Shown here: piece after piece, positions 9,365 to 62,198 of the stretch | Layout: every line of letters begins with the position of its first letter | Position numbering within the stretch: position 1 is the first letter of the stretch | NCBI RefSeq assembly: GCF_949628215.1 | Contig: NC_134285.1 | Span: 25,496,797-25,560,796 of the forward strand | Reading direction: 5' to 3' | Origin: Phalacrocorax aristotelis | Taxonomy: Eukaryota > Chordata > Aves > Suliformes > Phalacrocoracidae | Length of the DNA stretch: 64,000 nt | The notes under the pieces: model-generated | What the model was told of the DNA's origin: nothing | What the model saw: the letters and a program-made list of their open reading frames with translations, nothing else | The model's database searches: none | Program-made: the position numbers and the translations under genes

Positions 9365-10560
9365 ATAGAATCACAGGTTGGAAGGGACCTCAGGGATCCT
9401 CTAGTCCAACCTTTCTAGGAAGAGCACAGTCTAGACAAGATGGCCCAGCACCCTGTGCAGCAGAATCTTGAGTTTCCAACATGGCAGAGTCAACCACTTC
9501 CCTGGGGAGGTTATTCCAATGGTGACTGTCCTCACTGTGAAAAATTTCCCTTTCCTGTCCAATCGGAAAAGCAACTTGTGTCCATTCCCCCTTGTCCTAT
9601 CCAAGTGACTCTGTGTAAAAAGGGAGTCTCCGTCTTCTTTGTAGCTACCCCTTAAGTACTGGTACATGGTGATGAGATCCCCTCTGAGCCTCCTTTTCTC
9701 AAGGCTGAACAACCCCAGTTCTCCCAGCCTATCCTCATATGGCAGCTTCCCAGTCCTTTGTTCACCTTGGTGGCCCTTCTCTGGACCCCTTCCAGCCTGT
9801 CTACATTTTTTTTTTATAGTGGGGACCAGAACTGTACACAGTACTCCAGGTGTGGCCTGACAAGCGCTGAGTAGAACGGGGTAATGACTTCTTTATCTCT
9901 GCTGGTGATGCCCTTTTTGATGCAACCCAGCATCCTATTGGGCTTTTTGGCCGCAGCAGCACACTGTTTGCTCATGTTGAGCTTCCTGTCCACCAGGACC
10001 TCCAGGTCCATTTTGACAGAGCTGCTCTCCAGCCAGGTGGATCCCAGTCTGTGCTGCACTCCTGGATTATGTTTTCCCAGGTGCAAGACATCAGACTTCC
10101 CCTTGTTGAACTTCATAAGGTTCTTGCTGGCCCCCTCTTCCAGCCTATCCAGATCTTGCTGCTGACCAGCTCTCCCTTCTGGGAGTGTCTACTTCCCCAC
10201 TCAGCTTGGTGTCATCAGCAAACTTCATCAGGCTACACTTGATCCCAATATCCAGACCACTTAAAGATGTTTAATAATATCGGGCCCAATATCAATCCCT
10301 GGGGGACCCCACTTGTGACAGGCTGCCACTTTGAAAAAGAGCTATTTACCACCACCCTCTGGGTGCGGCCTGCCAGCCAGTTCCCCACCCACTGCACAGA
10401 GCACTTGCCTAGGCCATAACACATTAATTTCTCCAGGAGGAAGCTGTGGGGGACTGTATCAAAGGCCTTGGAGAAGTCCCGGTAGACAGTGTCCACTGCC
10501 CGCCCCATGTCAACCACACAGGTCACTAAGTACCTGGCTAGATATGTTGCAGTCCAGAGA
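9365..10560 (-). mobile_element. CR1 non-LTR retrotransposon, 5'-truncated and decayed
   Basis: This is a chicken-repeat-1 LINE in minus orientation. Its 3' end is at about 9365, where the plus strand carries the usual CR1 end (AATCACAGGTTGGAAGGGAC). Reading the minus strand from 10560 down, reverse-transcriptase blocks follow in order: [10 protein letters not shown] near 10460, SGVPQG near 10310, the catalytic FADD box near 10208-10228 in a shifted frame, then the conserved C-terminal blocks [10 protein letters not shown] (about 9890) and [11 protein letters not shown] (about 9690). These sit in at least three reading frames with stops between them, so the copy is dead. Endonuclease, ORF1 and the first half of the reverse transcriptase are missing, as is normal for 5'-truncated CR1 copies. 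No clear target-site duplication was seen. Confidence 0.95.
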
Positions 10561-10564
10561 CATA

Positions 10565-13500
10565 CTTTATTCCTTAGCAAACAGAAGGCTTAAACCATTG
10601 TCAGGTCTCCAAAGGAAGCTTTAAGCACAAGAAAATGACAGCACTTACTGCTAAAAAAAGTTTAAAAAATTGGAGGGTGATAATATGGGTTATAAAAGAA
10701 AATCTAGGAAGCTGCTGTGGAAAACTTAGAAAGATCCAAGCTACACACACCCGCTGCCTACTTCCATTTTTGCAAGCTATATTTGCTTCATGCAGAACAG
10801 GGACAGAAGCTTCTTTGGATCTGCTGCTGCTACTTCTATTGTCTGCTTCCCACTTTGCTACATGTTTTGAGGCCTACTGATAATATGAAAGAAGAGTGAC
10901 TTGTTTTGTAACTCAAGCCAACATGTTTGAGAAGCCTGTTTGCCATTCTGACTGAAGGGTTGACTTCGCCTTTAAATCTGCTACCTAACACAACAGCATT
11001 TCCTAGAAGTAGTCCCTTTTCCTAAGCTGTTCTTCTAGTTGCTGGCAGGATACAAATCCCAGATGATCAAAGAATCCATTTGCTAGGAGGTAATCACCTG
11101 TCTTCCAACATCACATGGGAGTTACCAATGCACTTGCCAGGTGACTGATATGGCTCAGGAGATCATAAATGAGCTCTGATGGCTTCAAAGGTGGCTCATG
11201 CTTGCTAGTGGAAGCAGAAATAAGGTGAAAGAATGAGTGATGAGACAAATGCATAGCTTATTTGGATGCAAAATGCAAATGCATTCAAGGACTAGCTCTA
11301 CAAACAGTATTTATTTTGAAGCTGTTCACTAAAATCATCTAGAAGGATCCCTAAAGTTGGCTAGGAAACAATATTAATACTTTCTGCTCTACTTTAGTAG
11401 AGAAAAGCTTGAAGAGTGTTTAGAGGTTAACTTGACTCCACAGAAGTCCGCTTGAGCAGCAGATTTTGCAAGAGCATTTTACAATACTCTGTTTTCTTTA
11501 CAAAGATATCACGACATCATCAACATTGACACATCTTTTTCACCGAAAACCACAAACTGGGTGCTGTATGAGAAGTATTTTGCAGACATGCAGCATGCAC
11601 CGATAGTCTGACATGCCACAAGCATGTACTACCACACATGATACGACAACCAGAAACTTTGACAGAGTAGGGCTGCTCCTTACGAATGCCTCAGCAAGCA
11701 GAAGAGTGATTCAAGCTTCCTGTGTAACTAAATAGCTTTTTAATGATGGCTTAAGATCTCTGAGCCATTAGCACCATCTCAGCACACATAACTGGCACCT
11801 GTTCTATGACGCATAATGTGCTCAGAAACTGTTCAAATCACTGGTTTCCCCTCCTGCCTTGCTGGGTGCTCTGACTTTACAACTTGCTGTTTCCAATATT
11901 CCTTCCCAGTTAATCAAGCTCTAACTCATTATAGCTCCCATTGCTTACTCTTCCATATCAACCCAATTCAACTTCAACTAAAAATCTGCTTCCATGAGTC
12001 TGTATTTCTGACAGCAGAGTTTAATTATGTTCTATTTGCCCCCAGTATGCCTTACAGCATCTCATCTTCACACTTTCCCACCGTTTCCAGGAAGGAGGGT
12101 ACACTAGCCGCAGAACATGCCCATCTGTAAGCTCCAAGGTAATGGGAACATAAGGAAAATCTTGCACAGTAATCATATGCTGAATTACAACAGTAAATTC
12201 TGCGGTATAGCCCAAAGATGGCTTCTCAACTTCCAAAGCCAGTACTCTGTTTGTAGCTGAACTAAATATTGGATGTTCAAGGAAAAAAAGAAAACAAGGC
12301 ATAATTCAGGAGGCTAAATGTTCATTTCTGCATGAAAGCAAGGGAAAAACCAAGAAGCCCTTCAGCCACATGCAATTATTAGAGTGTTGTGCTTCAGAGT
12401 GCGCACTAACCTCTTTCCACACGCAAAGCTACAGTTTGTTAGATACAACTGACCTACTGAATTATCTGAACTTAACCACAGTATTTATTCATGTCTGTGA
12501 ACCAGGGGTATTCACTAAAAAGAATCCACCTCAAAAATATCACCCTTTGTTCCAGCTTCAGCTGAAGCTAAATTCAGAAAGGCCGGTGACATTTGGCAGA
12601 CGAGTCAGCAGTCCATCCTGAGCAGGCAAGTACATGTCTGACTGATCAAGGTGCATGCAGACCCAGCGGTACCAGGCTGTACTTGTATTTATTGGGGAGA
12701 TGATCATATTCCACCCCCGCAGACGCTGTATGGAGTAGCAAAGCTTCTCAAAGGGACTAATGAAATTCAACTTAAATAGGCTCCAGAGAGCAAGGTTTCA
12801 ATAAACTAGCAATAGATGGTACCAGGAACACAGCAAACAACATGCAGATGTGACTATTTTGGCTCTTGGGTGAAGAAATTCACAACTGCAAACCAAAGTC
12901 CCAATTTCCTGAAGGGGTGCAAGGCCTTAGCCTAATTTATCTAAGACAGCTTAAGCTAGAACGTGGTTGAAAACTAGATCAGTAACTACTGCTTTTGCCC
13001 AGTGGGACTCTCTGGGTGAGACGGGGCAGGAGACAGTTTTCCGTGAGCAGATCCAGGGCTGCTGAACACATCTCCTTACTGATCAACTACAAAGTACATG
13101 CTTGTGGCTTTCCTTTATCAATCCAGCAAATTTGGGATGTAATGTTTCCCTGCAGGTAAAACAAGGCAAAAATAGGAACAGCAGCTGTTACTTAGCATAC
13201 TGCTGCCGGTGCTCAGTATGGTGACAGTGAGCAACATCACGATCCCCTGAAGACAGGTTTCCACCTACCAGCCCTGCAAGCCTGACTGCGTGCACCCAAT
13301 GGACTGAAGATGTCTCCTCTTGCTTGTTATCAAAAGAAAAAAAGATTGTGCAAATCAAAGCATGCTATATCTCAGCTCCCCATCTCTCGGTAGGATTGTA
13401 CATAGCTGCGACTGCCACTGCTGGAAGGCAGCTGAAGACCAGTATCTATGGCAAAATTAAATAATACTCTGCATGGAAAGGAACCCGGGTCATCTCTGCA

Positions 13501-33580: not shown

Positions 33581-34595
33581 GAGGTCCCACCAGCCCTGGG
33601 GGGCCCATGTCCCCAGCTGGGGCTTGCTTTGCACAGGGCGGTCGTGCTGTGCTTGCAGCATGGGGTGGCTCAGCAAGGCACCAGGTTTGTCCTCTTGGGG
33701 GATGATGGAGGGTGATGCAGTGCCGTGAAGACATCAGAAGAGATCCTGGGGTGGTTTTGCTGCCGTGGTGGTGTGGCGGGTGAGTCCAAGCTCGGCTCTC
33801 ATTGCGGGGATGGCAGGGGTGAGGAAAAACTGCCGCCGGTTTGTTGGGAATGAGGAACATCAGTGCTGTCATCTGTGCACCACTGGCCAGGCTCTCCACC
33901 GGATAGTCCTGTGCCCTGGTAGGGGAAAGCCGAGAGTTGGTGCCGATGGATGATCAGAGGCATATGGCGGAGTGATTTGTTGCAGAGCCATTGTGTGCCA
34001 CTCAGTGCTAGCGGCATGGCCCTAGCCCTGCTCCAGACCATCGCTGGATTGCAGGCAGACTTGGTTCTGGAGGAGGCTCCAGTGTTCTGCAAAGGTGGGA
34101 GGGTGGAGGAGACAGGGCTAGGTCCTGGGGTCCCCACAGGGAACTGCAGCAGCCATGGGGAGCCCCAAAGTGCCTCGGATCCTGTCCTGTGTGGTGGCTG
34201 TGAACACACCAGGACTGAGGAAATGTGTGTTTGTGTGTGTGTTTGTGTCTCCACATCCCTGCTCTCCTGGTTCTGCCATGCCCCAAGCCCTCACTTTGCC
34301 CCCAGACACCCCCCAATGCCGGAGGTGCAGGGGCCACTGAACCTCTGGCCCTGCCCCACATGGCTGCAGCCCCTCTGGAGGCTGGAGCACCCTCTCCAGA
34401 GTCAGGGTCGGTGGCCCCTGGGGACAGAGGGGTGGCATGCAGCAGGTGTTGCTCAGCACCGCCCTGAGCAGCCCAGTGCACCTTTGCAAGGCCCCGTGGC
34501 TCCCAGCCCCAGGGATGGGATGGGATGGGACAGGGTGCGGTGGCTTTGCAGCAGCCACCGAAAGCGGTGACATGCCTCTGCCTTGCAGTGCAGCC

Positions 34596-34791
34596 ATGAG
34601 CGCGGGTTCGATTGAGCAAGAGCCATCGCGCAAGCTGGCCTGCTGCGGGGTGCCCCTCATCACTGAGGACATGCAGTCCCTGGCCATCCGCACCCTCTCA
34701 GGCACCGACATCAGCAAGCACTACGACCTCATCCGTGAGCTTGGCAAGGGCACCTATGGCAAGGTGGACCTGGTGTCCCACAAAAGCACAG
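34596..34791 (+). CDS. SBK1: SBK1 coding exon 1
   Basis: Encodes residues 1-65 plus the first base of codon 66, covering the N-terminal tail and the Gly-rich loop. The exon begins at 34589 after CCTTGCAG, and the donor is GTGAGG at 34792. The junction is in phase 1, splitting a glycine codon. A second acceptor AG five bases downstream (34592-34593) would leave the start codon intact. Confidence 0.95.
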
Positions 34792-36504
34792 GTGAGGGGA
34801 GCTGGGGGGGGGGGGGGCAGGGGACGCAGCTGTGCTGGGAGCAGGGTGCCTGGCACATCCCAGCTGTGCCCCAGGCTCACGCCTATCCCCTGCCCCCCGC
34901 AGGCACCAAGATGGCCCTGAAGTTCGTCAACAAGAGCAAGACAAAGCTGAAGAACTTCCTGCGGGAGTTCAGCATCACCAACACACTTTCCTCCAGCCCC
35001 TTCATCATCAAGGTCTTTGACGTGGTCTTCGAGACTGAGGACTGCTATGTCTTCGCTCAGGAGTATGCCCCTGGCGGGGACCTCTTTGACATCATTCCGC
35101 CACAGGTGGGAGCCCCCACACCTCTCATGGGAGCCTTTTTGGGCTGTGGGGGTCTGGGGACTCATTATTCCCAGGGCACTGCCGCTGTGCTAAGGTGGCC
35201 ATGTGGGAAGAGGCCCCATGTGCTGGGACAGGGTATCCCTGTATGACTAATCCCCCACCAAAAGAACCTACAAGCAAGTATGGGACCCATCAGCCATCCC
35301 CTGGGTGGCCTAAGAGTCATCAGCCATCCCTAGGATGACCTGGGACCCATCAGCCATCCCCTGGGTGGCCTGAGAGTCATTATCCATCCCTAGGATGACC
35401 TGGGACACATCACCTGTCCCTTGGATGGCCCGAGAGTCATCATCCATCCCTAGGATGACCTGGGACATATCACCTGTCCCTTGGATGGCCTGAGACCCAT
35501 CGCCTATCCCTTGGGTGGCCTTGGACCCATCATCTATCCCCTGGAGGTCCTAAGACCCATCACCCACCACCTATCTCCCTGCCACAGAGAGCACCCTAGA
35601 TGAAAGCAGCCGCAACTGTGTCGGATGTGTAATGACCTACAGATATGGTGGTTCCCAAGCTGGGTGGGATTACCACAGGGTTTGGTGGCGGGTGGCTGAT
35701 GCTGTGTCCCCACGCCCACAGGTGGGGCTCCCCGAGGATCTGGTGAAGCGCTGTGTGCAGCAGCTGGGCCTGGCCCTTGACTACATGCACAGCAAGAGCC
35801 TGGTGCACCGGGACATCAAACCGGAGAACGTCCTGCTCTTCGACCGTGACTGCCGCCGCGTCAAACTGGCTGACTTTGGCATGACCCGCAAGGTGGGCTG
35901 CCGGGTCAAGCGCATCAGCGGTACCATCCCCTACACGGCGCCCGAGGTCTGCCAAGCCGGCCGGGCAGAGGGCTTCACTGTGGACACCAGCATCGATGTC
36001 TGGGCTTTTGGGGTGCTCATCTTCTGTGTCCTCACCGGTAACTTCCCCTGGGAGGCCGCGGCAGCTTCCGACGCCTTCTTTGAGGAGTTTGTACGGTGGC
36101 AGAAGGGGCGGCTGGGGGGGCTGCCCTCGCAGTGGCGGCGCTTCACGGACAGCGCCCTGCGCATGTTCCAGCGCTTGCTGGCCCTCGACCCCGAGAAGCG
36201 CTGTCCTGTCAAGGAGGTCTTCTACTTCATCAAGTGTGACCTGATGGCCGAGGTGCGACGCCGACCCTCCTACCGCTCCCGCAAGCACGCCGGGGACAAG
36301 CTCCCGGCCGGTCCCCATCGCCACGAGGCAGCCGGCTCCTGCACCCCTGCCCCGCTCAAGAGGACTGTTCTGACTGAAGGGAGCGGATCCCACGGCTCTG
36401 AGCCAAGCGTGGCCCCCCCGGGGACGGCGAGCAGGACAGATGGACGGCAGGACAAAGGCAAAGGGCAGATGGTCCTGGCCACAGCAATAGAGATCTGCGT
36501 CTGA
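34596..36504 (+). CDS. SBK1: SBK1, SH3-domain-binding serine/threonine kinase 1 (spliced, three coding exons)
   Basis: Joining 34596-34791, 34903-35105 and 35722-36504 gives a 393-residue kinase with no internal stop. The order is: N-terminal tail; Gly-rich loop GKGTYGKV (50-57); ATP lysine in ALKFVNK (K72); alpha-C glutamate E87; HRD at 162-164 with catalytic D164 and [12 protein letters not shown] at 184-186; APE at 206-208; and a basic C-terminal tail ending [10 protein letters not shown]. All catalytic residues are present, so it should be active. The near-identity of the core and the C-terminus to mammalian SBK1, including the phrase [20 protein letters not shown], makes the assignment firm. 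As I recall the human protein (about 424 residues), the bird one lacks a short N-terminal insertion and the long Pro-Val repeat near the C-terminus. SBK1 is a cytosolic kinase expressed mainly in brain; its substrates are poorly known. The ATG follows the acceptor by seven bases. Confidence 0.97.
34804..34817 (+). repeat. Run of 14 G in SBK1 intron
   Basis: An uninterrupted G run sits 12 bases after the donor in the 111-bp intron 34792-34902. G runs near donors often act as intronic splicing enhancers, and this one could form a G-quadruplex in the RNA. Confidence 0.85.
34903..35105 (+). CDS. SBK1: SBK1 coding exon 2
   Basis: Encodes the rest of codon 66 to residue 133, with the ATP-binding lysine K72, helix C and the hinge ([17 protein letters not shown]). 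The acceptor is CCCCCCGCAG at 34902. The donor is GTGGGA at 35106, with phase 0 after Gln133. The reading frame runs on into the intron, so splicing is inferred from the matching acceptor at 35721 and from family alignment. Confidence 0.95.
35281..35570 (+). repeat. 60-bp minisatellite inside SBK1 intron
   Basis: Almost five copies of a 60-bp unit, each made of two related 30-bp halves. One half starts TGGGACCCATCAGCCATCCC; the other contains GAGTCATCATCCATCCCTAG. Register is kept exactly at 60 bp for four copies. It takes up nearly half of the 616-bp intron 35106-35721, so the intron length could vary between individuals. Confidence 0.93.
35722..36504 (+). CDS. SBK1: SBK1 coding exon 3 (last coding exon)
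   Basis: Encodes residues 134-393 and the stop TGA at 36502-36504. It follows the acceptor CACGCCCACAG at 35721. It holds the catalytic loop, DFG, activation segment, APE, the C-lobe and the tail. The tail keeps the [12 protein letters not shown] and [13 protein letters not shown] blocks, while the proline-rich stretch between them is reduced to a few prolines (VAPPGTAS). Confidence 0.96.
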
Positions 36505-54343: not shown

Positions 54344-54349
54344 TTTATT
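54344..54349 (-). terminator. Candidate poly(A) signal of the minus-strand gene
   Basis: TTTATT on the plus strand is AATAAA on the minus strand, about 340 bases after the stop codon of the candidate terminal exon. It is useful only if that exon is real. Confidence 0.3.
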
Positions 54350-54687
54350 TTTTTTGTTAGAGCTGGATCATGCAGCCATTTAAACACTAGTTCTGTCACT
54401 GGAGTAAGAGGCAGAGTGAATCCTGCCATTTGGGAGTGCCTCCTAACAGCCATAATTCATGCACATGTATTCTGCAGATCAGCAAGGAAGTTTATCCTTG
54501 GTACAGACAGCCACACTGGGACAGACCAGGATGAGGAGTGAAAGACGCAGCTGAGACTGGCACCTCATCCTCTCCGCTTCATTCTCAGCCCCTTGGCTCA
54601 CTGTGAGCAGCAATGAGAATCCACTGCAAGGTTTGCTCTGGGGGTGCTGCCTTGAGACTGGCAAACTTAAAACTTACCAAGTTAAGC

Positions 54688-54874
54688 CTACAAAAGAGGG
54701 AAGCACTGGGTTGCAGCTGATCTTGTTATGCAGCACCCATGACTCTGATGAGCAAAACCCTGGGGAAAATAGAGATGTGGGGATCCTGTATTGGCTGACA
54801 GCTCTGCTGAGAGCCACTCTACCAGAACACCCTTCAGCAGTGATCTCTGTGGTTCCCTACAGCTCACTTTTTCT
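54688..54874 (-). CDS. Candidate terminal coding exon of the NDK-like gene
   Basis: On the minus strand a long pyrimidine tract (CCCCCTCTTTCCCTGGTTTA) precedes CAG at the 54874 boundary. The exon then supplies exactly the one base needed to complete the split codon left by exon e, and stays open for 61 codons to TAG at 54690-54688. Poly(A) signal AATAAA lies about 340 bases further. The peptide (start EKVSCREPQRSLLKG) shows no clear NDK C-terminal motif, so the assignment rests on splice phase and layout. A frame this long is not rare by chance. Confidence 0.3.
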
Positions 54875-56005
54875 CTGTAAACCAGGGAAAGAGGGGGAGA
54901 AAACTCCTTAAAAAGGTCTTGGATAACTTGCTCTTTGCTTCCTCTTAGTGTTGTACCTTGCAGGGTGAAAAGTTTGGGATGTGGCTCTCAAGGTTGTGAT
55001 TTTAAAATTAATGGGAGTAATGTCTAAATTTTCTTATTAGCTTAAAAGCATTTTTGAAAAGTTACTGATGAAATTTGTTCCAACCGTTCTTCCCTGGTGC
55101 GGCCTTGTGACCAAGCACCGCAATGTTTCATCAAAGTACGAGAACTCCAAGGTGTCTATCAGCTTGGGTGTTCAGGTTTGATCCCCTTGATGCTTGTAAA
55201 CTCCAGCATCCTTGAGTTCCTTATGCCTTTTCCATTGACAGTGTTATCTGGAAGTCCTCCAGATGGAACAGCCTAAGTCAAAACCAGTGTGGCTGCTGGA
55301 CTGCTCTCTGCCCAATGTGTCAGAAAAAAAGACTCTCCTGGCTTCCTTTCACAGAGGAAACCATGTGCATGAATTAGACATCACATTGCCAAATACCAGT
55401 CCCGGTGCAAGGAAACTTTCCCTCTAGGAAACAGTGGGTTAATTGGAGTGATAATCATCCTGTTTCACTAATCAGTCCCTGTAGAGGGATTTTGTTTGTT
55501 TTACCAGGCTTATACATCCTCTACCCAGCATTTCTGGCGACTTATTTAAGAGGCTAATTCTTGATTTTGCTCTCTGGTGATCATTTTAAGTGTTTTTTTT
55601 TTTTATAGCAAACATAGAATCTGCTAAGATATTTCTCCTAGGAATTTTACTGACTCAGCAGGTCTATTCCCAATGTGAGCCCTTATTTCAGAGAATTCCC
55701 TGTATTCGCGGAACCATGCCGCCAAGTCTCACAGGCACTCCAAGTCCTTAACAAACAACACAACTCAGTACTTAAGGTCCTGAGTATAGAACACATGACT
55801 TTGAAGCTGGGGAACACTCTGAGGTATTGACCTGTTAACAACATAACTTAGGAAGAATAGGTTGCCTTTGAGTGGCACCTGACCTCATGGGAGTCTGAAC
55901 TGGAAGTGAATTGCAGAGAGAAAAGTCAGCTGCCCTTCTTCAGATCACAAGCTCTCCAGCAGGGGGTTGAGACAGTGCTGTTAAAGCGATATTGTCCTCA
56001 CTTAC

Positions 56006-56091
56006 CTGTCTAGCAGGGAGTTGAAACAAATGACCGCATTGCCTCGCTGTGCTGCTAGCACCAGACACAAACCATGCATTAAGAGGGTACA
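56006..56091 (-). CDS. NDK-like gene, exon e
   Basis: 86 bp. The acceptor is TTCTTCCCTCTCTTGTAG, with an excellent pyrimidine tract, and the donor is a consensus CAG/GTAAGTG. Phase 0 in, phase 2 out. The 28 codons include CLVLAAQRGNAVICFNSLLD, which matches the NDK strand plus G-x-NAV helix start. The catalytic Arg/His positions are not evident, suggesting a structural, non-catalytic domain. Confidence 0.7.
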
Positions 56092-59000
56092 CTACAAGAG
56101 AGGGAAGAACAGAGCTTTGGTGTTGCTATCCTCTTAAATCTGTAGGCCTCACTGATGAACTGCTGACAGCACAGGTAACTGCTTGTGTGATGTGTGAGGG
56201 GATGAAAATCATAAAGCAACACACCCTTTCAAATTGAAAGAGTATCATGTAGGAACTGTTAGTTATCCCGCTCCTATGGCATACTATTATTCCTGTCCCC
56301 TTCTCTCAGAGTGAAAATAAGCAGATTACTTAGGTGTGTTAGTCACTAAGTCTGCTGGAAGCAGGAATACAGAGATAACAGTAAAGGTTTAGGTATTGTA
56401 GCAGAAACAGTTATTACTTGAAGGAACCCAACTCCTTTCTGGCAAGGGAAAGCAAATGCTGTAGTATTCACCTTTGGCTCAGCAGTGCCAGACCCTTCTG
56501 GAAACATGCCAGCTCTGCCCAGAGTAATTCATCTTTGACAGGAGGAAGTGTTTCCATGGCCAGGAGAGCAGTACCGCTGCCACAGCTCTCCCTCCTACAT
56601 GCTGATTCACTTTGTGCTTCCTAGAGAGCTGTGCATGTTCCCGTGTGTGGAGGGATGGCATCCTCAGGGGAACTGCAGGAGAAGAAAGTAGTGCTTAGAC
56701 TAATTGGATGCTAGACGTAATTGCTGTTCTGTACAGATGTACTTCAAAGGGATGCTGTCAGTTTAAAAAATCACAACCTGAAAAGATCTTACCTGTTCTT
56801 ATTACAGATAACACTCAAGACTCTTGCAACTGAAAGGCTGGGAGCATAAATGTTTGTCTGTATTTTTTCAGAGGGACTGCTGTGTGTCTCTGACAGCTTT
56901 TTGTTGATTGATACTTCCAGTATAAGTAGTTACCCCTCTTGTTTACTCTGAGCCCCGACAGCACTTTCTTGCATATTCTACCTTACTGCTTTACCCTAAT
57001 AAGGTTCCTGGAATGGTGGGCTTCTCTTACACCAAGTGCAAAGGGAAAAACAGTTTGGGCAGATACTTTGCTGGTGTAAAGCAATGCATCCACTATCCCC
57101 AGAAGTGCATGTCTTGATTAAGCCCCCTGAGCACTTGCTGAAACCCCATGCTGGACTGTGACTCGAGCTGTCAGCACCAACTAAGTGAGAAGCTAAATTA
57201 AATCTCTGTCCAGGACTCCAGGACACAGTCCAAAAAGTGGAAGGGTTATTTAACATTGTAGAAGAGGATTAATGGGGTGTGATTAGAGAAAAGGAAACAA
57301 ACTCTATTTATCTGGAAAAACAAGACAGGCTGCAGCAGCAGAACATACCTAATAGCAGCAGCTGCGCACTGATAGGTGAGTGGAATAAAACGTTTCACAG
57401 GGATGTGCCATTCACATTAAGGATCTGTTCATACATACTGATGTCAAGGTTAGGTGTCAGTGAGCTAGCGGAGATACAGGAACACAAGGTAGGGACTAGC
57501 GAGGCAAGGCACGTCGCCCACATTACTTAGCAGTGATATTACAGCACAGATGCAGTGCTGTGCTAATACTGCTACCAAAGCAAGTTTGCTCAGAGCTAGC
57601 CTGGATATCTTATCACAGCACGGCATTAAAAGGCTCTTCCTTTGTGCAAAAGCAGCAAAGCACAACTCCAGCGATTTCATACCTTTGCTGCAACACTGCA
57701 CTTTGCCCTGCTTAGCACCTCAGAGATGCAGTGAGCTTGTGGTGCATCCAGGACAGTGAGGCGTACTCCAGTCACTGTGAAATCTTTGCCAATAAGCTGA
57801 TCAAGCAGTTTGACATAAGGTAGGTACTCTGAACCCTGAAGAATTATCCCAGGCAATATCAAGCAAGTGGTTTGGCAGAAGTTATCAAGCAATGGCCGAT
57901 CTGATGGGAAAAGATCAAAACAAAACAGATGTTTATTTTATATCCACCCCCCCTCAACTGCTAGTCCTCTAAGTAATTCTTCTTTTCCACAGACAAGTAA
58001 CTGGAAGATCAGAAGAACTCAGGCATTGTCATATTGTTTGGGATGTTCACAGATGCAACTGCTCATCCTGAACTGTCAAAACTGCCGTATGCCTGCATGT
58101 ATGTATCTGGAGATCACAAGACAGCAGTAGTGACCTCATTTCAGGAGTCAGACGAGGACAGCTGCTGGTCTGCTACAGGAGATACTGTTCCATTTCATTT
58201 CTTCCAAGCAAAGAAATTTGTTAATGCAGCTGCTTTTATAATCCAAAATGTAATTCTGATCAGCATACATAAGACTTAATGTATCTCATATTTTCCTCAT
58301 GATAAATCTGTCTGTCCATTAGGCAGCAGCTTTGTGATAATTATTTGCTAAGAGGTTTATCTGTGTGCAAGAGCTACCTCTAGCGTTCAGATGAGACCAT
58401 AAAGTGAATGATGTGTCTGGCTTGCTGAAGGCACTTACTCTATTGTGCCTGACAGTTCAGGGATCACATGTACTTGCTTTTCCAGAACAGTAACTCTTTG
58501 AAATACATTTTCTGAGACACAAACATCAGGGCTGTGCACTGGTTTCCTTTTTACTCTGCTTAGACATCTTCAAAGCAAAAAAAGTCCTCATGCAGCAGGA
58601 AATCAGGGACACATATTTTGAAATTTGCTCCCAGCACTGCGCTGTACAAAGCTTGCAGAATACTTGTGCTCTCTCCACAACACTCATTTTATTTTATTTT
58701 CTGCAATCTCTTCTAAAAATCAAGAAGCACTTCAGTCACAGCAGACCTGTGCTACAGTGCTACAGGCCTGGTCCTTTCCCATCCTGCAGTAGGTTGTTGG
58801 GGCAAATACCCTGTCTGTCAGCAATAGCAACACAGGATACTTTGGACTGGGAACACCTGCAAGTCTTCTCTCACTGCAGCTTTGTACTCTGAACACAGCT
58901 TGAGCTGACATACCCCGCAAGAAACACAACGATGTGATCACATCTCTGCAGCTACCCAAATGAGAAGGTCAGACAGCTACATGCAGAACAGCCCAGTCGT

Positions 59001-62000
59001 CTCAAAAAGCTGCTGTTACATATGCACAATTGCCAGTCTCTTGTTTCAGGACTCATACAACAGCTTGGGAATGTCAGCTATATATTGAGACAGGCCTCAT
59101 TCCTCACCACAGGCATCAGTTAAGTCTTAAACCATCATGCAATCTCTGATGTATTAACGTACAATGTAAGAAAAGGTGCGTGCCTGTGGATTTGTGATTT
59201 TTGTAATGATCATGAAGCACGTGTAGCTAACACAAGACAGTGGAAAGAATTCATTGATAACTGCCTTAGGAAAAATCCTCCTTCAAAGACTCCCCCTACA
59301 CAGAAGTGACCTGGTGCCTACCAAGCAGCTATGCTGTCATTAAGGCAAAGGCCTCGACTTACCACCATCCTCCTTGCACCTGTTGGTATGAGGTCAATGC
59401 CCAAAAGTCCCATATCAGTAAGGGTTTAAGGTGGGAGGTGACAGTCTGTAATTCTGTAGAATTCTTCTGAGAGTCCACAAGAATCTTGTGGTTTTACTAC
59501 TACAATTAACAATAGCAGCAATCAGGTGTAGCACAGGAACATTTTCTCAGCTGCCCACCCTCCTACTTGCCAGTCACATTAGAACTCAAGCTACAGGAAT
59601 GAGAATGACCCGGTTCCAAACACATCTGCTCCCCGGTGAACACCACATGGATGCTTTACCTGGTCACTGTTTGTTTATAAAGGCTTGGGATCAGATCAGC
59701 CCACAATATCCCAACATGGAAGCGTCCCCACGTGTTAGTTACACCTCCTGATATATATGGTGCTGCATCACAGCCTGTATCATATACATGCCTATCAAGT
59801 AAAATCAACAGAAAAGGCCCAGAGAAACTGTAGGCATCTGAGGGAACTGACAGGCTTGCTAAAGCTTCAGCTTCAAATCAAAGTCAGACCAGTGATAACT
59901 GGAAGTCTTTTTCATCTGGCAGCTGTTCAGCAGCTAGTGGGAATTGAATGAGATCTCAAGTCCAGTTCCGAAGAGTTAGACGTCCACACTGCCAAAAGCA
60001 CTCCCTGCATAAACTGTTATTTATCTACTCACAGAACAAAACGTCTCATGATCACCCAACACTACGGTGCCTGGGCCTCTCCTGTGACAGGCTTTGAATG
60101 CACACGCAAACCACCGTGGCCAAGTTGGTGTTGAAACACATTGGACAAGTTCAGCAGAGAAACATGCACTATTGCTTACACTAGCTATATTGACAGTGTT
60201 TGTTCTTCTGCTGCTGCTAAGGTCAGCACTTCTGAGCAGCCCTGTATTTAAACCCATGAAAGCACTGGCATTGGAAATGTCTGGCAGGTAAACAGTTAAA
60301 TGGCTGGACTCCACTGGAACTGCTCTTTGCAGATTAGAGTTGTCTGTCTCTTCTGAAAGGACATCAATACCAAATCTTGCTGCCACCAGATGGTTTGCCT
60401 TGCTGTCCAATTAATCAATAACGGTCCCAATCTATAACAAGAGTTATGCATTTCCTTACTGAGGTGGCATGGTTGCTCAGAGCCCAGAAAATTCCGTTGC
60501 CCTCCCGTTTCACGTTTTATGCTCTTGCGCTGCTTGTTGATTTCCAAACTGTCTATGGGGTCACATTTTAGGTTATAGATCTGCAGGAGGGAAGGGAGGG
60601 AGAGAGGCAAGTCATGTGAACACTGTTACCTAATCAGAAAGGATAACACTTCTTAAGAATTGATTCAGGCAAGCTGTGAAGCTGTTGATGGTGTTGTGTA
60701 CTTCTGTAATTGCTGGCCTAGAAAACACCTGTTTGCCTGGAGATACAAGAACACTTTGCATGCATTTTTTCTTATTACTGAGGCTTAATTCAGTACAGCA
60801 TCTTGTCATCCTTTTAAAGGTCCTACACCCAGACATCTTTCTAAGTTTTCTGCTCACAGCTTTTCAAGGCCAGAAATTCAAGGACTGTGAATGTCTGACG
60901 ACTTTATCCAGTGCCACACTGGTGTGTAGCAGCTCCCTTCTGTCTCTGAATGGACTGGCACATCCACATGTCCCAGCACAATGCAGTCATGATGCTCCAA
61001 GACTGAGTTGCAGAGGGAGGGCATCCACATTAGTGAAGAATATTACAGATGTGGCTAGCTGCTTCCAGTCCCAGAGCTAATCTCATTGGACTAACTCAGC
61101 TGGGTCACCCCTGTGCCATGTGGACATAGCAATACTCAGAAAATTTCCATTCCTTCATTGAGCATAACCCAATCATTTCAGATTCCAGTTTTGAGAGGAA
61201 AATGGTCAGATTAGAAATGACATACAAAACTAGTTGAATCAGAAAGGCTTCTTGTTTCATTTTAGCCATTAGAAAATTACAGTGGTTTGAATCAGAGACC
61301 AGCAGCTACATAGTGTGAAGGTCCAGACGAGCAGGACCAGACCGCACCAGTACTGGTAGGCTTCTCAGCACTGCCTACAAGGCAAGCCAAGAGGCAAGCG
61401 TCTGAGTCTTTCTGCCTCTGTCTGCGGGCAGGGAAGGATGCAGGCACCCAGCAGCTCTGTAAACTGACTGTACTTTATAGCATAAGATGTCTTACAAAAG
61501 ACAACCCAACCGTTTTCATTGCTGAGGACTGGTACCTCTGCTAGCAGGTCACAAAGTACAACACCCTTGTCACACAAATAGGGCAGTGCTCCACACTGTT
61601 CGTGCATGGATGCATACAGACTTTGTGGGAGACATTCAGCAACCAGCAAGTTACATTATCTGCGGTCCCACTTCATCTCCATCCCTGAACACTACATGAG
61701 AAAAGCTGGTTAAAAAACCAGCCTCTGGGCCAACTGTGCCTCAGCAATCATCAGTGATGTCGGTGGCCCTCCCCATGACCTGCTTCCAAAGCGATGTTGA
61801 CTCTATCTGGGAACTTTGCTTTTAAAGTATAAGCCCCTGAGCCCTCCTGAATTAACAGCACAGGTTACTGAATAAACATATCTGAAAAAGCACTTTTCCA
61901 CTGACACTGCCTGGGTCAATACAAAGTTAGCGCATTGTGGTAGGAACACCCACGGAAGAAGGAAAACTTGGCAGCTGGTGAAACACAGCAAAAAAATAAA

Positions 62001-62198
62001 AAGCATTATCTAAAGCACAATAGGAAAGAAGTCACGGGATAACAGGGACAAAGCCATTGCTCTGAAACAGCAGGATACTTCTCAGGAAAGGGCAGAATCC
62101 TACCTCTTCCTCCTCTAATGTCTGACACTGAGTGCAGCACAGCCCTTCTGGGAAAAACAGCTTCATATCGCGGACAGCTATTTGATAGGATTTGGAGC
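56006..62198 (-). CDS. Unnamed multi-exon gene with NDK-like domains (partial; five exons)
   Basis: Exons 62198-62104, 60580-60460, 60379-60033, 57835-57683 and 56091-56006 on the minus strand all have consensus acceptors and donors. They join with matching phases (0, 1, 0, 0) into about 267 codons without a stop. Exon a resembles the end of a nucleoside-diphosphate-kinase fold (GSKSYQIAVRDMKLFFPEG, compare the HGSDS...FFP end of NME proteins). Exons b and c form a linker rich in Ser, Asn and charged residues. The end of c with d and e resembles an NDK fold from strand 1 (TVVLGD), through GKDFTVTGVRLTVLD, to LVLAAQRGNAV (compare the G-x-NAV block). The active-site NxxH region is not in the exons found. 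Tandem NDK folds occur in NME7 and TXNDC3-type ciliary proteins, but this is none that I can name. The 5' end and probably the true 3' end are not established. Confidence 0.7.
56472..56620 (-). CDS. Possible alternative exon between exons d and e
   Basis: 149 bp on the minus strand with acceptor GCTCTCTAG and donor GTGAAT. It is open for 49 codons in the frame entered from exon d (contains SGTALLAMETLPPVKDELLW) and ends in phase 2. It has the same entry and exit phases as exon e but cannot be joined to it, because exon e would then hit a stop at its fourth codon. It could be a mutually exclusive exon or a chance frame. Confidence 0.3.
57683..57835 (-). CDS. NDK-like gene, exon d
   Basis: 153 bp, exactly 51 codons, phase 0 at both ends. 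The acceptor is GATAATTCTTCAG and the donor GTATGA. The peptide contains YLPYVKLLDQLIGKDFTVTG and VRLTVLDAPQAHCISEVL. This is a helix, a hydrophobic strand and a helix, in the order of the NDK fold (compare the aGF.I...k...L..eqa.efy pattern). It is the clearest coding exon of the gene. Confidence 0.75.
60033..60379 (-). CDS. NDK-like gene, exon c
   Basis: 347 bp. The donor is GTGAGT after a phase-0 end. The chosen acceptor (GGTGGCAG at 60380) leaves an 80-bp intron and fits phase 1 from exon b. An alternative acceptor GGACAG about 20 bases upstream gives a different phase and was not preferred. The 115 full codons give a Ser/Asn-rich linker, then TPTWPRWFACAFKACHRR, and end RGPGTVVLGDHETFCS, which runs into exon d as the first strand of the second NDK-like domain. 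Confidence 0.6.
60460..60580 (-). CDS. NDK-like gene, exon b
   Basis: 121 bp. The acceptor is CCCTTCCCTCCTGCAG and the donor GTAAGG. Phase 0 in, phase 1 out. It encodes 40 residues of charged linker (begins IYNLKCDPIDSLEINKQRKS). It joins in frame after the acidic end of exon a. Confidence 0.65.
62104..62198 (-). CDS. NDK-like gene, exon a
   Basis: 95 bp. The acceptor is TTTACTTCTCAG before 62198 and the donor is GTAGGA at 62103. Phase 1 in, phase 0 out. It encodes 31 residues beginning SKSYQIAVRDMKLFFPEG, a typical NDK-domain ending, followed by a CxxC (CTQC) and an acidic run EEEE. The preceding exon, which must supply one base and probably the catalytic histidine region, was not identified between here and the window end. 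Confidence 0.7.

Follow-up and report, generated by a model that had tools for sequence, protein, structure and literature searches.

The window analysed here, a stretch of 64,000 nucleotides of the Phalacrocorax aristotelis genome (C10:25496797-25560796, in an assembly of 1.28 Gb and 352 contigs), carries on its minus strand five exons, a to e, that are very probably the 3' part of DNAAF8 (C16orf71/Daap1), the gene for a dynein axonemal assembly factor. An earlier note on this DNA had described the exons and matched them to no named vertebrate gene; given DAAP1 exons farther upstream and a published NDK extension, they are best read as encoding the C-terminal part of DNAAF8, and a gene that went unrecognised gains a name and a role in building the motors of cilia. 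The gene starts outside the window, upstream of exon a, and we consider it highly probable that it spans the minus strand from beside ANKS3, ~82 kb past the window, to SBK1. Both DNAAF8 and the NDK domain in its non-mammalian extension are already known; the likely new detail, read from the sequence, is a tandem of NDK-like units in the extension, the first secure and the second likely, with catalytic residues lost.

DNAAF8 as the probable parent gene

The identification of exons a to e as the tail of DNAAF8 is drawn from same-strand DAAP1 exons, an ANKS3-like neighbour and the published NDK extension. A genome-wide search with DAAP1 (PF15773; Pfam cut-off 27 bits) lists one place, at 34.7 bits, which lies on the strand of exon a, ~80 kb farther upstream (coordinates are collected in Table 1). 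Three of the seven candidate DUF4701 exon peptides match DAAP1 in collinear order, two of them above the cut-off; the pieces cover model positions 2-22 at 29.0 bits, 24-51 at 37.7 bits and 286-322 at 16.4 bits (below cut-off). Beyond the DAAP1 match, and head to head with it, lie plus-strand ankyrin and SAM exons that we take to be ANKS3, the human neighbourhood being C16orf71-ANKS3. At the other end, tail to tail with the exon a-e gene as the earlier note had proposed, stand plus-strand protein-kinase open reading frames (ORFs) that are presumably SBK1; the second exon piece scores 109.7 bits against Pfam Pkinase, and the first piece has no match there.

DNAAF8 is the approved name for C16orf71/Daap1 (PMC8754002). 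All non-mammalian Daap1 orthologs are described as having, after DUF4701, a long C-terminal extension that includes an NDK domain, and human DAAP1 as being without that extension (PMC7785291). The gene described here has the same order, with DAAP1/DUF4701 exons and then an extension with an NDK-type domain. It differs in that PMC7785291 describes one NDK domain, Nme8/Nme9-like, whereas here there are one secure and one likely unit, closest to the NME7 type and with catalytic positions lost. Among the open-access papers listed by literature searches, no title or abstract opening describes DNAAF8 as having NDK units that are in tandem or catalytically dead.

The exon chain

A search for the longest in-phase exon chain ending in a stop between positions 54600 and 62400, with dinucleotide shuffles as the control, returned exactly exons a to e, that is, 696 nt in whole codons on the minus strand. 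The start and end limits recovered, 62198 and 54688, are those given before, and the observation of five exons chaining in matching phases is thereby confirmed. The longest plus-strand chain is 507 nt, and 696 nt was reached by one of 300 shuffles; when the last exon is left out, the chain is 513 nt and 4/300 shuffles are equally good. The search was not blind, since its thresholds were chosen with the weak donor of exon b (0.3 bits) already known. Under a stricter donor threshold exon b is missed and exon a is taken in another frame, giving 393 nt (equalled by 1/200 shuffles), and longer chains then appear in 4 of 48 stretches elsewhere in the region, some of them with other genes. All sites are of the AG/GT type and the phases from a to e run 1-0, 0-1, 1-0, 0-2 and 2-stop. 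Splice scores are 4.8 and 3.5 for exon a, 3.3 and 4.0 for exon c, and 4.2 (acceptor) and 8.7 (donor) for exon d; the acceptor of exon b, the exon with the weak donor, scores 5.8. The exon e acceptor, in phase with exon d, scores 4.5, in the top 0.8% among 1329 AGs.

Probable tandem NDK-like units

Unit B, made up of an exon just outside the window and exon a, is securely an NDK homologue in sequence terms. The upstream exon ORF alone scores 20.1 bits (E 6.1e-4) against Pfam NDK (PF00334), below the cut-off of 27 bits; joined to exon a, it reaches 33.2 bits. The joined pair has 37 matches in the PDB (best E 2.6e-9), 35 of them named NDK or NME and the others TXNDC6 and CFAP67A, which we take to be NDK-domain proteins, and hhalign gives 95.8% against seven NDK sequences from this genome. 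With a profile of the genome's own NME exons, the upstream exon ranks first among 7667 ORFs (E 0.0079, the next being 3.9). As the NDK match runs across the join, the splice into exon a is supported, and the end of an NDK fold that had been noticed in exon a is borne out.

A home-made spliced profile search with the NME profile found unit B alone at DNAAF8, at 31.1 bits over a background of ~15-20; the other units there scored only after B and C had been added to the profile. The same search recovered NDK genes at NME3-, NME5-, NME6-, NME7- and other NME-type loci, which is no independent control because some of the exons behind the profile came from those very loci, and at the NME1/NME2 pair it ran from the first exon of one gene into the next gene.

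Unit C is likely a second, more diverged NDK-like unit. With the end of unit B in exon a, exon b reads as a linker (it has no NDK similarity of its own) and exons c and d as most of unit C. Searched against the PDB, exons c+d give two matches, both NDK (E 0.013 and 0.014), and c+d+e the same two (E 0.0068 and 0.022); the joined exons a-d give five matches at E up to 10, of which the best two are NDK (E 0.019 and 0.023). Additionally, exon d and the upstream exon of unit B are each other's second match, after self, among the 7667 ORFs (E 0.079 and 0.11). A single-sequence structure model of exon c was too poor for use (mean pLDDT 43), and a MAFFT alignment of all the NDK-like units was misaligned and set aside.

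Are these units enzymes? Catalytic positions are numbered here after NME1. In the alignments of unit B, H118 is replaced by V, N115 by D, R88 by I and T94 by E, and R105 is retained; in those of unit C, K12 is replaced by L and R88 by N. No N-terminal half of unit B turned up, so the K12 and Y52 positions are unreadable in B. At the positions that can be read in B and C, the residues of an active NDP kinase (H118; K12, R88, N115) are gone. Units B and C are thus probably not catalytic, and the lost positions agree with the earlier idea of a protein with tandem NDK-like folds that is divergent and perhaps non-catalytic.

Candidate units farther upstream

A single exon farther upstream, unit A, is probably a third NDK-like unit with an unexplained frame change, which may reflect a frameshift, an assembly error or a misjudged exon. 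The exon occurs in one copy in the genome. Its frame-0 part is equalled by 0/300 shuffles with a profile of NME, B and C and by 5/300 with NME only, and its frame-1 part by 5/300 and 12/300; in frame 0 it ends in phase 1, as unit B does. Among the 7667 ORFs, unit A is the fifth match for the unit B exon and, as the query, finds the unit B exon third and exon d sixth; it is absent from the top six of exon d. Against the PDB, no NDK is among its two matches in two separate runs, and its hhalign P is 0.07.

Two exons still farther upstream, whose phases fit, make up unit Z, which we put forward tentatively as a fourth, not significant, NDK-like unit. Of 161 candidate exons they take the first two ranks, and plus-strand controls score up to 22.0. 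Joined, they are equalled by 14/300 or 20/300 shuffles, and the second exon alone, with the NME-only profile, by 151/300; none of five PDB matches is NDK (hhalign P 0.17).

Points against and rival explanations

Several results weigh against a single DNAAF8 gene ending in tandem NDK-like units. At the DAAP1 end, 4/7 candidate DUF4701 exon peptides have no DAAP1 match in Pfam, nor do three longer ORFs at the locus (the largest of 193 aa), and the 286-322 piece matches RHH_5 slightly better than DAAP1. From about 133 kb to 66.0 kb in extended window coordinates, ~67 kb, no secure exon was found, and the candidates inside that stretch are those at 97.4, 95.2 and 81.3 kb; the union of the 5' and 3' parts in a single transcript here, from DUF4701 to exon e, is for this reason something we infer. 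The NDK-like halves of unit A are read in two frames; the spacing between them is 116 nt, not the multiple of three that one would expect. The earlier note had placed most of a second NDK fold in exons c and d; the two PDB matches of c+d uphold this, whereas Pfam has no match for the joined exons a-d or for c+d+e. Unit C is equalled by 165/300 shuffles with the profile of the genome's own NME exons and by 110/300 with NME + B, and its hhalign probability is 1%. Exon e alone lacks NDK likeness (250/300 and 278/300 shuffles equally good); in other words, the C-terminal third of unit C is unlike NDK, and its histidine position cannot be read. Finally, DUF4701 alone suffices in Xenopus for localisation to the cytoplasmic assembly compartments called DynAPs (PMC7785291), which would make the extension dispensable for localisation.

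Could the NDK units instead belong to a separate NME7/NME9-like gene between DNAAF8 and SBK1, unjoined to DNAAF8? The ~67 kb without a secure exon that separate unit B from the last DUF4701-like exon would allow it, and the PDB matches of B and C are closest to NME7-type proteins. We nevertheless regard a separate gene as quite improbable, given that published non-mammalian DNAAF8 orthologs have such an extension (PMC7785291), that the NDK units are adjacent to the DAAP1 exons on the same strand, and that loci of the NME7, NME5, NME6 and NME8 types (so named by likeness) are found elsewhere in the genome. That the open frames arose by chance, with no gene at all, is extremely improbable: the shuffles that equal the stop-ending chain (and those that equal the chain without the last exon) speak for it, but the Pfam and PDB matches to NDK span a predicted splice and collinear DAAP1 exons lie upstream.

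If exons a to e do belong to DNAAF8, the extension might still be a remnant that is decaying in this species, heading for the mammalian type of loss. The two frames of unit A and the loss of catalytic residues in B and C would be expected of such decay, which we hold to be improbable because the unit B exon and the five window exons are open and have splice sites and a stop, followed by AATAAA; the frame change of unit A may be an assembly error or lie outside the exon that is used, and this exon was found in a single copy, with no second haplotype for comparison. An active NDP kinase domain on DNAAF8, supplying GTP/ATP locally, is very improbable. Unit B does exceed the Pfam NDK cut-off and keeps the R105 position, but V stands at the H118 position in B, R88 is lost in both units and K12 is lost in C.

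A possible role, and known relatives

We return to DNAAF8 with a tandem, catalytically dead tail; if this reading is true, the NDK part of DNAAF8 would be a binding platform, not an enzyme. Xenopus Daap1 is required for the deployment of outer dynein arms (ODAs) and interacts with Dnai2, Dnai1, Dnah9 and Nme9, and in frog and human the protein takes part in dynein assembly, lies in the cytoplasm and is missing from axonemes (PMC7785291). In the mechanism that we propose, the DUF4701 part would bring DNAAF8 to DynAPs, and the NDK-like units, being without the phospho-histidine, ATP-site arginine and lysine positions, would transfer no phosphate and would serve as protein-binding modules that hold ODA subunits there, perhaps together with NME9/NME8. 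Binding, presumably of dynein, would be the likeliest remaining role of the extension. It is possible, if rather doubtful, that the non-mammalian DNAAF8 tail is an array of three to four degenerate pseudo-NDK folds that acts as an ODA holding platform in place of a missing NME8/NME9, and that mammals have lost the whole array.

Among known systems, NME7 (PDB 8i7r, 7rro, 7ung and others) likewise has two NDK domains, with two matched stretches in several entries, and unit B finds it among its best PDB matches; the two PDB matches of unit C, NDK proteins with lengths of 375 and 372 residues, are of NME7-like size. NME7 differs in being a separate gene elsewhere in the genome (at C1:126.2 Mb, named by likeness). 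The earlier comparison with axonemal proteins of the NME7/TXNDC3 type therefore holds for sequence, in which the units come nearest to NDK domains of the NME7 type, and fails for location, since Daap1 is cytoplasmic. NME8/NME9 (TXNDC3/TXNDC6) are also ciliary NDK-domain proteins, with TXNDC6 among the 37 PDB matches of unit B and Nme9 as an interactor of Daap1 in Xenopus (PMC7785291), but they are linked to thioredoxin (NME8: PMC8754002; NME9: by the PDB name TXNDC6). The Tetrahymena NDK-domain protein Q22MS1, which may serve dynein-arm assembly or transport, is likened here by description alone and is Tetrahymena-specific according to PMC12633730.

The genome-wide Pfam NDK search, which gives a lower bound on NDK loci, contains a sole NME8/NME9-type locus by likeness (at least one in the genome). 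This agrees with the published statement that many vertebrates retain only one of Nme8 and Nme9 (PMC7785291).

Coordinates and other loci

Table 1. Exons of the putative DNAAF8 tail and other features. Plain positions are those of the window; "reg" positions continue them past 64000, the C10 position being reg + 25496796.
Feature	Position	Strand	Remarks
Exon a	62104..62198	minus	C-terminal end of NDK-like unit B (GSKSYQIAVRDMKLFFPEG) and linker; phase 1 in, 0 out
Exon b	60460..60580	minus	Linker joining NDK-like units B and C; phase 0 in, 1 out
Exon c	57683..57900	minus	Likely beta1-alpha1-beta2 part of NDK-like unit C (TTCLILPGII... GKDFTVTGVRLTVLD); phase 1 in, 0 out
Exon d	56006..56091	minus	Likely core of NDK-like unit C (LCLVLAAQRGNAVICFNSLLD); phase 0 in, 2 out
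Exon e	54688..54874	minus	Last exon, 62 residues, stop at end; phase 2 in
AATAAA, possible polyadenylation signal	54344..54349	minus	Pattern match, 339 bases past stop
Unit B upstream exon	C10:25562609-25562807 (reg 66011-65813)	minus	Ends in phase 1, joins exon a in frame
Candidate unit A exon	C10:25577827-25578137 (reg 81341-81031)	minus	Splice sites 4.75 and 4.9 bits
Candidate unit Z exons	C10:25594092-25594236 and 25591826-25591950 (reg 97440-97296, 95154-95030)	minus	Phases fit
DAAP1 match	C10:25640344-25640430	minus
Ankyrin and SAM exons	C10:25649542-25649835 and 25656034-25656315	plus	Presumably ANKS3
Protein-kinase ORFs	34341..36501, approximate	plus	Presumably SBK1
NME8/NME9-type locus	C2:52502231-52506238	minus	By likeness
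NME1-4-type genes	C10:25448793-25449338 and C10:25148146-25150252	minus	By likeness
NME1/NME2-type gene pair	C16:14870922-14879111	plus	By likeness
CR1-type fragment	9434-10589	minus	By eye only

Two genes for NDP kinases of the NME1-4 type lie on the same contig, ~47 kb and 350 kb to the left of the window, and a tandem NME1/NME2-type pair lies on another. Within the window, minus-strand ORFs resemble, by eye, a fragment of a CR1-type reverse transcriptase.

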